From a virus, in IMG/VR virus record IMGVR_UViG_3300044615_000403, positions 1 through 34,774 of that record: 34,774 bases of DNA, one strand, 5' to 3'. Below, in pieces: positions 6,885 through 7,741 of this stretch. The translations under genes were made by a program, and so were the position numbers. Every line of letters begins with the position of its first letter. Positions within the stretch are counted from its first letter, which is position 1. A model generated the notes under the pieces. That model worked only from the letters and a program-made list of their open reading frames with translations. It made no database searches and was not told the origin of the DNA.

Positions 6885-6910
6885 TTTCCCATATCGGGGG
6901 AAAATTTCCC
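6885..6910 (+). other. Three-arm inverted repeat, possible weak terminator
   Basis: TTTCCC (6885-6890), GGGAAA (6898-6903) and TTTCCC (6905-6910) allow two mutually exclusive hairpins right after the stop at 6884. There is no proper T run, so termination is uncertain. Confidence 0.3.
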
Positions 6911-6935
6911 GGCAAAATTTCTTTGCGTGAGGGTT

Positions 6936-6965
6936 TTCATAAATCTTCATTCTTTTTAGTATAAT
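6936..6965 (+). promoter_or_regulatory. Possible sigma70-type promoter with start-site hairpin
   Basis: TATAAT at 6960-6965 is perfect, but the -35 candidate TTCATA (6936-6941, 18-base spacer) is weak. A perfect hairpin, GATACA-TTTT-TGTATC (6969-6984), begins at about the transcription start and may act as an operator or a 5' stabilising hairpin. Confidence 0.4.
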
Positions 6966-7009
6966 ATGGATACATTTTTGTATCTATTGTTACTGTTTCA
7001 ACATAAAAC

Positions 7010-7039
7010 TTGTATATATAAGAAGAATAGAGGTATAAT
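7010..7039 (+). promoter_or_regulatory. Sigma70-type promoter for the riboswitch microgene array
   Basis: TTGTAT (7010-7015), an 18-base spacer and TATAAT (7034-7039). The expected start near 7046 puts the first aptamer half (7050) almost at the RNA 5' end and the ATG (7060) about 14 nt from it, leaving no room for a Shine-Dalgarno sequence. Confidence 0.65.
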
Positions 7040-7049
7040 ATCCCTCTAA

Positions 7050-7300
7050 CGTTCATCCTATGTCTAAGGCACTTTTGCTTTTAGCATGGGTTCCACTTCT
7101 TTCTATCTCTACGCCTCAACTTGCCAAATCAAATCAAGTGACAATAAGTTGTGACGCAGCGTGGGAACTAATGGACATCGTTAAAAACGACGATGTAGTA
7201 GACCAAAGAAAAGAAGACCGATTGCTATCAGAACTCCGAAAGGATGTTGTGAGACTTAAGTGCTAAACTGAATAGGACGGAAGTAAGCCGACTCGGAACG
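7050..7300 (+). promoter_or_regulatory. Split glutamine-riboswitch-like aptamer A enclosing an ORF
   Basis: The 5' half CGTTCATCCTATG (7050-7062) and the 3' half at 7271-7300 (ATAGGACGGAAGTA core, terminal GGAACG) can form P1 (CGTTC 7050-7054 with GAACG 7296-7300) and P2 (CCTAT 7057-7061 with ATAGG 7272-7276). The core ACGGAAGTA and CGTTCAT match what I recall of glnA/Downstream-peptide glutamine riboswitches. The whole 68-codon gene lies in the P2 loop and its start codon is part of P2. The 3' core (CTCGGAACG) departs from the remembered CTGAAGGAACG. Confidence 0.5.
7060..7266 (+). CDS. Small exported-type protein inside aptamer A
   Basis: A 68-residue protein with a signal-peptide-like N-terminus (MSKALLLLAWVPLLSISTP) and a short charged helical body (DAAWELMDIV, RKEDRLLSELRKDVVRL) ending in Cys. 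It may be secreted to the periplasm or membrane-anchored. There is no Shine-Dalgarno; the ATG follows CGTTCATCCT directly, the same context as the next microgene. Its C..AxxLM region loosely resembles the next protein, suggesting duplication of a gene-plus-aptamer unit. The function is unknown. Glutamine-linked control of translation is inferred from the flanking RNA. Confidence 0.65.
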   Translation: MSKALLLLAWVPLLSISTPQLAKSNQVTISCDAAWELMDIVKNDDVVDQRKEDRLLSELRKDVVRLKC

Positions 7301-7303
7301 GAT

Positions 7304-7472
7304 CGTTCATCTATGGAAACACTCTTATTAACTTGTTTACAAGCACAGTTAATGATTGGAAGAGTTTATAAAGTTGATATTCCAAAACAAGCAAAAAATG
7401 ACTTGATTTGGGAAATCAAACAGATTGCTCCAAAGGAGTGTAAAATAGACGCAAAAGCCGACTGAAGGAACG
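7304..7472 (+). promoter_or_regulatory. Split glutamine-riboswitch-like aptamer B enclosing an ORF
   Basis: The 5' half CGTTCATCTATG (7304-7315) and the 3' half at 7445-7472 (ATAGACG, then CTGAAGGAACG) can form P1 (CGTTC 7304-7308 with GAACG 7468-7472) and P2 (CTAT 7311-7314 with ATAG 7445-7448). Compared with aptamer A, P2 is one base pair shorter on both strands, a paired change that supports the helix. The 3' core matches the remembered glutamine aptamer well; the GGAAGTA core is degraded (GCAAAAG). An alternative local fold pairs this 5' half with the 3' half of A. Confidence 0.45.
7313..7465 (+). CDS. 50-residue microprotein inside aptamer B
   Basis: ATG at 7313 opens a 50-codon frame: a hydrophobic N-terminus (METLLLTCLQAQLMIG), then a basic/amphipathic body (PKQAKNDLIWEIKQIAPKEC), with its stop inside the 3' aptamer half. 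The start sits in CGTTCATCTATG, matching the start context of the previous gene. No Shine-Dalgarno is present. The N-terminus is too short and polar for a confident signal peptide. It is probably a diverged duplicate of the preceding microgene. Function unknown. Confidence 0.6.
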   Translation: METLLLTCLQAQLMIGRVYKVDIPKQAKNDLIWEIKQIAPKECKIDAKAD

Positions 7473-7505
7473 CTCTTTAACCTAAAAAACTAAGGAGAAA
7501 ACCTA

Positions 7506-7643
7506 ATGTCTAAAGTCGTTTACAGAGGTGTTGAATACGATACCCAAAAGCGTATCGAATACCAACAGCAAATGCAACAACAAGCCCAACAATACAACGA
7601 AACCTATCGTGGTGTTAAGTTCGTAAAGGAGGGGCATAAGTGA
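7506..7643 (+). CDS. DUF4278-like small protein
   Basis: A 45-residue protein with YRGV motifs near both ends (VVYRGVEYDT, NETYRGVKFV) around a Gln-rich linker. The paired YRG motif is characteristic of the small cyanobacterial DUF4278 proteins, which also occur in cyanophages; function is unknown. AAGGAG (7491-7496) is well placed before the ATG. It begins a chain of tiny genes: its stop overlaps the next start as TGATG. The presence of this family supports a cyanobacterial host. Confidence 0.7.
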   Translation: MSKVVYRGVEYDTQKRIEYQQQMQQQAQQYNETYRGVKFVKEGHK

Positions 7644-7741
7644 TGCAAAAGCTAAACTTCCTACAACTTATCAAAGAACAAAAACAAAAAGAAGAGCGCC
7701 GTCACCAAGCACAACTAGCACAACTCGTTGGAGCAAAGTGA
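7643..7741 (+). CDS. 32-residue micro-ORF
   Basis: MQKLNFLQLIKEQKQKEERR followed by a short helical tail (HQAQLAQLVGAK). It is highly charged and predicted to be one amphipathic helix. AAAGGAGGGG (7625-7634) is a strong Shine-Dalgarno just before the overlap with the DUF4278-like gene. Start and stop overlap the neighbours by one base each, which supports translation. No function recognised. Confidence 0.5.
   Translation: MQKLNFLQLIKEQKQKEERRHQAQLAQLVGAK

Follow-up and report, generated by a model that had tools for sequence, protein, structure and literature searches.

The window analysed here, the whole 34,774-nt stretch of IMG/VR virus record IMGVR_UViG_3300044615_000403 (positions 1-34,774), contains in the region followed up (about 7,010-7,643) what are, by comparison with related loci, a tandem pair of glutamine-I-type (glnA, RF01739) aptamers, each wrapped around a small protein gene. 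We propose, at a probability of roughly 0.6, that a cyanomyovirus mRNA here begins with tandem glutamine-I aptamers whose P2 loops have been replaced by genes, and that translation of the enclosed genes and ligand sensing are mutually exclusive. The anatomy by itself, apart from the mechanism, is far more likely to be correct.

All features lie on the plus strand. A sigma-70-like promoter (7010-7039; -35 TTGTAT at 7010-7015, an 18-nt spacer and -10 TATAAT at 7034-7039) terminates 10 nt upstream of the first unit, and the RNA 5′ end is predicted at about 7046, a few bases upstream of aptamer 1. The two aptamers span 7050-7472, with an insert of 140-222 nt in each P2 loop. The first unit reads CGTTCA-TCCTAT, a 68-codon ORF and ATAGGA-CGGAAGTAAGCCGACTCG-GAACG. 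Its 5′ half (7050-7061) comprises P1 CGTTC (7050-7054), A7055 and P2 TCCTAT (7056-7061), which includes the AT of the start codon of nested gene A (7060-7266; 68 amino acids with a hydrophobic N-terminus, Cys31 and Cys68). Its 3′ half (7272-7300) comprises P2 ATAGGA (7272-7277), a core starting from CGGAAGTA (7278-7285) and P1 GAACG (7296-7300). After a 3-nt linker (7301-7303), the second unit reads CGTTCA-TCTAT, a 50-codon ORF and ATAGA-CGCAAAAGCCGACTGAAG-GAACG. Here the 5′ half (7304-7314) holds P1 CGTTC (7304-7308) and P2 TCTAT (7310-7314), again including the AT of a start codon, that of nested gene B (7313-7465; 50 amino acids with Cys8 and Cys43), and the 3′ half (7445-7472) holds P2 ATAGA (7445-7449), the core CGCAAAAGCCGACTGAAG (7450-7467), which includes the gene B stop, and P1 GAACG (7468-7472). 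The final codons of gene B, GAC GCA AAA GCC GAC TGA, cross both P2 and this core.

Directly adjoining P1 with no gap is a possible expression platform (7473-7497), in which CTCTTTA (7473-7479) is able to pair with TAAGGAG (7491-7497) and hide the Shine-Dalgarno sequence; CTCTTT and AAGGAG are also present in many relatives. A sub-threshold PreQ1 match over this Shine-Dalgarno region (7461-7499; 17.5 bits against a threshold of 39) is probably due to chance. The downstream gene (7506-7643; 45 amino acids), which starts 33 nt past P1 and after the Shine-Dalgarno sequence, is DUF4278-like: its product matches phrog_5049 (E 1.7e-10) and scores 19.7 bits with PF14105, under the cut-off of 25.3, while the P-SSM2 counterpart scores 29, over the cut-off.

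An earlier note on this DNA had described two small genes, each enclosed by split glutamine-riboswitch-like aptamer halves, with the start codon in P2 and no Shine-Dalgarno sequence. Both ORFs (7060-7266 and 7313-7465) were confirmed, as was the presence of each start codon within P2 in the window; P1 CGTTC/GAACG can be read from the window sequence in both units, no obvious Shine-Dalgarno sequence precedes either gene on inspection by eye, and comparison with relatives upholds the enclosure by aptamer halves. The P2 strands do pair around both genes, but their length had been understated by one pair, P2 being 6 bp in aptamer 1 (TCCTAT/ATAGGA) and 5 bp in aptamer 2 (TCTAT/ATAGA).

As a basis for identifying the RNA, the motif alone is statistically weak: CGTTCATC occurs twice in the window against 0.73 occurrences expected, and the exact GACGGAAGTA once. 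The covariance-model search proposed in the note had a divided outcome, in that the window went unmatched and compact relatives matched RF01739. An Rfam search of the window region returned no glutamine aptamer match even at E 10, nor did RF01704 match at E 10 within 6900-7700, and neither window aptamer scores at the RF01739 gathering threshold. This silence is expected because 140-222 nt sit inside P2, and the proof of identity is instead comparative, resting on short-P2 relatives recognised as RF01739 at the same place and on covariation of the second-slot P2. In S-PM2, S-CREM1, DSL-LC02 and P-SSM2 the best RF01739 match scored 33.3-35.6 bits (threshold 35, exceeded in two), and P-SSM4, with a gene in both slots, gave no RF01739 match. 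S-CREM1 already carries a glnA riboswitch annotation (PMC9964418). All 12 of a further set of loci compact in both slots matched RF01739 at E ≤0.019, five of them over the gathering score; a sixth (L063) was the sole one of the 12 over threshold with RF01704 (33.2 against 33). In two of the first five relatives RF01704 reached 24.6 and 26.4 against 33, with pairs that fail.

The window cores are variants of the canonical one. Aptamer 1 has the aCGGAAGUA core exactly, but CTCGGAACG in place of GAAGGAACG, so that the GAA of the canonical strand preceding P1 is lost; aptamer 2 has GAAGGAACG, but CGCAAAAG in place of aCGGAAGUA. The P3 hairpin comprises only about two pairs in Rfam alignments of the relatives and is still shorter in Syn9-type cores. 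In the solved glutamine riboswitch structure the ligand contacts C1:G59, C58 and G22 (PMC6698751). When these contacts were mapped onto the window by our own reading, both aptamers were found to have the corresponding bases, namely the C that opens P1, the CG that closes it and, following P2, the G of a CG.

A DNA search with the window region matched 39 cyanophage and marine-virus records. At the corresponding place both aptamers carry a P2 hairpin of the usual short kind in S-PM2 and S-CREM1; a gene occupies only the second aptamer in DSL-LC02 and P-SSM2, and each of the two aptamers in P-SSM4. Scanning IMG/VR for the junction between the aptamers yielded at least 120 stretches, which with the window and the five phage records were parsed as 126 loci; these were not dereplicated, and locus counts are therefore not counts of independent events. 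Owing to missing ends, 122 first and 120 second aptamers were typed among the matches listed. The first aptamers were compact in 86 cases and long, that is gene-bearing, in 36, and the second were compact in 52 and long in 68, insert lengths being bimodal in both slots. Where both slots were typed (116 of the listed matches), a gene was present in the second only at 46 loci, in neither at 35, in both at 18 and in the first only at 17.

Among the same listed matches, an ORF lies inside every long insert (36/36 first and 68/68 second), starting 3-6 nt past CGTTCA. Second-slot ORFs end 16 nt into the core in 62 of 68 cases and otherwise at -2 (three), +13, +29 and +52; first-slot ORFs end 2-14 nt upstream of the core or about 9 nt into it, a single end listed as +13 reflecting an ambiguous core match. 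The parsed loci thus establish, at the level of base complementarity, that P1 and P2 can form around each gene, and that the gene starts in or beside the P2 5′ strand and mostly stops shortly ahead of the 3′ strand, within it or in the core. In the second slot the core doubles as the final codons and stop, and 67 of the 68 listed inserts keep the reading frame between start codon and core over four start offsets. A stop occurs as the core triplet before AGGAACG in 68/68 gene-bearing and 43/52 compact second aptamers among the matches listed, a contrast that is modest since most compact aptamers also have it. No locus was found that retains the ORFs but not the P1/P2 complementarity, a case that the earlier note had said would count against it: every long insert retains P2, although six have only the 3 leading pairs.

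The nested proteins led to further isolates. With tblastn against phage records, window gene B matched 4 records and window gene A none, and two IMG/VR nested-protein relatives matched 58 and 100. Twelve more isolates were examined, 10 taken from nested-protein matches and 2 from DNA matches: S-TIM5, S-CAM1, S-IOM18, Syn9, S-MbCM100, S-ShM2, S-CAM8, P-RSM4, P-HM1, Sf-CH11, S-SSM7 and S-SRM01. All 12 have the tandem aptamer with at least one nested gene, amounting to 19 nested genes in 24 aptamers. Several have the more divergent core CGCAAGTAAGTCGCGGAACG; slot 1 is compact in S-MbCM100 and S-CAM8 (hairpin TCCC-TTCG-GGGA), the slot 1 start codon lies outside P2 in S-IOM18 and P-HM1, and gene B of S-CAM1 stops 15 nt upstream of the core. 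In S-SRM01, GACGGAAGG replaces GACTGAAGG in the aptamer 2 core, and gene B, having no core stop, reads on beyond the aptamer. In P-SSM4 a manA RNA (RF01745, 184 bits; L003:1019-1204) lies directly upstream of the tandem glutamine aptamers.

An independent scan used the canonical 3′ half as query and was insensitive to P2 length. In genomes, CGTTCA lay within 450 nt of 128 of the 131 halves among the matches listed, with loops of ≤60 nt in 124 and of 63-114 nt in four; in IMG/VR it was present for 127 of the 128 listed, and 126 loops were short. One IMG/VR half (L336) had a gene-A relative in its loop and another (L360) was preceded by a gene-A relative cut at the contig end. Since nearly all of the listed loops were short, gene inserts are not general to this RNA. 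The four loops of 63-114 nt between CGTTCA and core (L191, L147, L211 and L223) are not of nested-gene size. Contigs bearing canonical glnA-type 3′ halves with CGTTCA and a loop of ≤60 nt upstream (L131, L135, L137, L142, L146, L149, L172 and others) are labelled SAR86, SAR116, Pelagibacteraceae and other Alpha- and Gammaproteobacteria, at odds with the restriction of glutamine riboswitches to cyanobacteria described in a review (PMC6316151).

The nested coding sequences evolve as protein genes. Median pairwise dN/dS, computed from equal-length pairs, was 0.43 for the gene-A family (108 pairs, none ≥1) and 0.17 for the gene-B family (113 pairs, 8 ≥1), values that show purifying selection at the sequence level, and two cysteines are common to all 98 distinct nested proteins. 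Gene B is modelled as a two-helix hairpin (mean pLDDT 83.5), and the gene A model is less sure (65.6). A Pfam search of the window pair gave no family at its cut-off. phrog_504, of unknown function, was matched at E 0.01 by 27 of 32 gene-B relatives, window gene B itself giving 0.017; the best matches to the PDB had E 0.46 for the gene-B profile against sequences and E 3.5 for the gene-B model against folds. The two genes had been called duplicated, which is unproven: they are alike in size class, hydrophobic N-terminus and two cysteines, and profile-profile comparison gave a probability of just 15% (E 0.0018 for the single comparison). One nested-gene cluster (≥60% identity) occurs in slot 1 of L101 and in slot 2 of L091 and L107, a pattern suggestive of interchangeable gene slots in the P2 loops. 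On a gene-B tree of 64 rows the slot 1 state has to change at least 11 times, and on a DUF4278 tree of 105 rows the states of slots 1 and 2 have to change 21 and 27 times; with short proteins and phage recombination, these figures are rough signs of turnover, not counts of gains.

Pairing across the gene was assessed by covariation. P1 is invariant and was used in the search and parsing, and so gives no covariation evidence. For P2, 35 distinct second-slot halves were compared, after removal of two second-slot loci with a core of other than 23 nt. Both sides have changed in five of the six pairs, the covariation score was 0.325, which 0/500 shuffles reached, against 0.129 in shuffles and at most 0.122 when slid, and 89.5% of P2 cells were paired (94.3% counting the invariant P1). 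Other measures were less clear: five doubly changed pairs were reached in 11/500 shuffles and the 13 further pair types in 52/500, and the sixth pair fails in 18 of the 35. With partners shuffled among second-slot inserts, 0/2000 reached the observed pairing. Among first-slot inserts, which offer just 9 distinct strand pairs, 104/2000 did so over five positions and 35/2000 over six, a weak covariation. The comparison of strands thus shows that second-slot P2 strands co-evolve across the gene, and the earlier claim that P2 is kept by paired changes holds clearly for the second slot and weakly for the first.

The same strands bear on two other explanations. In one, block 7272-7314 would be a single contiguous, circularly permuted aptamer before gene B, with P2 formed from ATAG(GA) and (T)CTAT. 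The block does lie within the best conserved cyanophage DNA, and ATAG/CTAT and GAACG/CGTTC can pair locally with a GAT loop; nevertheless, at the 81 loci with at least one long insert among the matches listed, pairing over the first five P2 positions was 0.960 and 0.980 with the own partner against 0.635 for the permuted arrangement, and all five positions were paired at 65 and 74 of these loci against 4. Circular permutation was rejected on this difference in partner pairing and is considered very improbable. The other explanation, that gene insertion killed the aptamers and left their halves as relics in a plain 5′ UTR, would account for the missing Rfam score, for the GAA lost from aptamer 1 and for an aptamer 2 P1 that is scarcely predicted without a ligand bonus. 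It is nonetheless judged improbable, given that P2 covaries around second-slot inserts, that the glutamine-contacting bases of the solved structure are kept in both window aptamers and that second-slot cores remain conserved despite also serving as codons.

In most clades tested, the nested coding sequence is itself predicted by folding models to keep P2 closed. With one representative per clade and GC-matched natural phage coding inserts as controls, the predicted P2 pairing with the native insert had a median of 0.957 against 0.138 in 20 second-slot clades (Fisher p 3.3e-11) and of 0.979 against 0.241 in 5 first-slot clades (p 0.001); window gene A was no better than its controls (0.365 against 0.494). 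Relative to synonymous recodings, end-to-end pairing of the gene beyond P2 was stronger, at a combined z of -4.0 for the five and -3.0 for the 20 representatives, with 3/5 and 4/20 individually reaching the 5% level. Total stability of the nested coding RNA was discarded as a signal: it was strong against synonymous recoding, but the controls were also negative, with folding z means of -2.28 for nested genes, -1.57 and -1.17 for other phage genes and -3.07 for DUF4278 genes, and therefore only the specific closing of P2 was relied on. The DUF4278-like coding sequences (window 7506-7643 and homologs) fold more stably than their synonymous recodings (mean z -3.07, 20 loci). RNAalifold on 21 gene-B sequences predicted 13 pairs, none changed on both sides, and found no conserved internal fold.

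The position of the transcript start bears on when the start codons would become available. Within 22 nt upstream of aptamer 1, the best -10 box was perfect at 52, one-off at 32 and two-off at 38 of the 122 loci among the matches listed, compared with 2.3%, 22.6% and 53.5% of shuffled sequences; this enrichment, with the -10 box just upstream of aptamer 1 in the window, accords with the earlier proposal of a promoter at 7010 and an RNA starting at the aptamer. The box ends 7-10 nt upstream of aptamer 1 at 77 of the 84 listed loci with a good box, and the first start codon would therefore lie near the RNA 5′ end and be made before the 3′ half. At the other end, a Shine-Dalgarno sequence and start follow aptamer 2 at 114 of 115 listed loci, 109 of them with a YRG/FRG motif.

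Accessibility of start codons and Shine-Dalgarno sequences was predicted with energy penalties on P1 and P2. Among the matches listed, folding of the aptamer was predicted to lower the openness of the second-slot start codon in 57/68 cases and to raise it in 6, and nascent RNA was predicted to have the more open start in 52/68. For first-slot starts the counts with the aptamer folded were 13 lower and 14 higher of 36, with 18 more open in the nascent state. Of the two window genes, B conforms to the second-slot pattern and A is predicted to do the opposite (0.15 folded against 0.01 with P1/P2 penalised). The masking of start codons by aptamer folding, put forward in the note, is thus predicted for the second slot, but not for the first. 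Folded with the downstream leader but without a ligand bonus, aptamer 2 is predicted to form almost no P1 (median 0.00 compact, 0.01 long), and therefore an alternative fold competes with this helix, as a switch needs but as is also expected of a dead aptamer. With the aptamer folded, the DUF4278 Shine-Dalgarno sequence was predicted to be more open in 20 and less open in 7 of 50 compact loci, and more open in 15 and less open in 13 of 66 long loci, among the matches listed; in view of these mixed counts, no direction of DUF4278 control is claimed. Activation of expression is reported for the glutamine riboswitches of cyanobacteria (PMC6316151), and glutamine-II has been proposed to act by freeing a hidden ribosome site (PMC6698751).

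From the second-slot accessibility predictions we infer a competition between ribosome and aptamer. The mRNA of the nested gene would form an oversized P2 arm. A ribosome that initiates as soon as the start codon is made, ahead of synthesis of the 3′ half, would open P2 and prevent the aptamer, and a folded, glutamine-stabilised aptamer would hide the start and stop codons, such that one RNA would either yield the nested protein or sense glutamine for the DUF4278 gene, but not both. A ribosome finishing gene B at 7465 would reach the CTCTTTA/TAAGGAG hairpin that adjoins P1 in the clade of this window, making coupling between gene B and DUF4278 possible. A simpler account, which we consider unlikely though deserving of some weight, is that the nested genes are plainly translated and that the aptamer forms only on untranslated mRNA copies, regulating DUF4278 alone and leaving the nested genes without glutamine control. 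In its favour, folding of the aptamer is not predicted to mask the start codons of first-slot genes, no conserved internal structure was found in the gene-B family, and cyanobacterial riboswitches are described as acting on the downstream gene (PMC6316151). Against it stand the location of start and stop codons within or close to P2 and the core in nearly every insert, the closing of P2 above coding controls in most clades, and the second-slot starts predicted to open if the aptamer is unable to form (57/68 among the matches listed).

Returning to the proposed exclusion of translation and sensing, a more tentative extension, which we hold somewhat less probable than not, is a two-way riboswitch in which glutamine-bound RNA would shut the enclosed gene and set DUF4278, ribosomes would switch the sensor off and the P2 loops would act as exchangeable gene slots. 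One sequence would then be under simultaneous selection for its protein code, for its RNA helix and for its part in a ligand pocket. Riboswitches are usually drawn as non-coding leaders; here protein genes lie inside a putative ligand-binding fold in many cyanophages, including long-studied isolates, and bases of the aptamer core double as codons and a stop codon. The nested genes conceal gene-bearing aptamers from standard RNA-family searches, which suggests that further riboswitch classes be scanned again for long coding insertions in their peripheral helices. A likely nitrogen sensor shares its transcript with a DUF4278-like gene and small proteins, and the arrangement lends itself readily to testing whether translation and ligand sensing compete.

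Compared with glutamine-I RNAs (RF01739), the window shares P1 CGUUC/GAACG, a P2 directly after CGUUCA, the aCGGAAGUA core in aptamer 1 and GAAGGAACG in aptamer 2, as well as the occasional tandem arrangement upstream of DUF4278 genes; it differs in a P2 loop that holds 140-222 nt with a protein gene, and in the core variants CGCAAAAG (aptamer 2) and CTCGGAACG (aptamer 1). In cyanobacteria, too, such RNAs precede DUF4278 genes, a link that has been reviewed (PMC6316151), and tandem glnA riboswitches are already known: both motifs received their names from Weinberg et al. 2010, who also noted glnA RNAs in tandem and described short ORFs downstream of Downstream-peptide RNAs (PMC2864571), and 157 doublets and 4 triplets have been counted (PMC9481103). 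Those tandems likewise place two aptamers in series before one gene, but the available text of that report mentions no coding sequence within the aptamers (PMC9481103). Glutamine-II (Downstream-peptide, RF01704) is related in sequence, with a virtually identical ligand environment (PMC6698751), but has a pseudoknot fold and carries its short ORF downstream of the aptamer (PMC2864571). The M. tuberculosis metE B12 riboswitch with uMetE2 also has a start codon in the aptamer, the loss of which alters downstream output; there, however, a short uORF (+123 to +170) overlaps an ordinary aptamer for another ligand in an OFF switch, and no conserved gene replaces a hairpin loop in the system as described in the available text (PMC11260477). 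A search of the open-licence literature found no report of a conserved gene nested in a riboswitch aptamer, which is not proof of novelty. Group I introns carry endonuclease genes in their peripheral loops and so also place a gene in the loop of a structured RNA; they are self-splicing, whereas here the host is a putative regulatory aptamer and its cargo a small protein without a known family.
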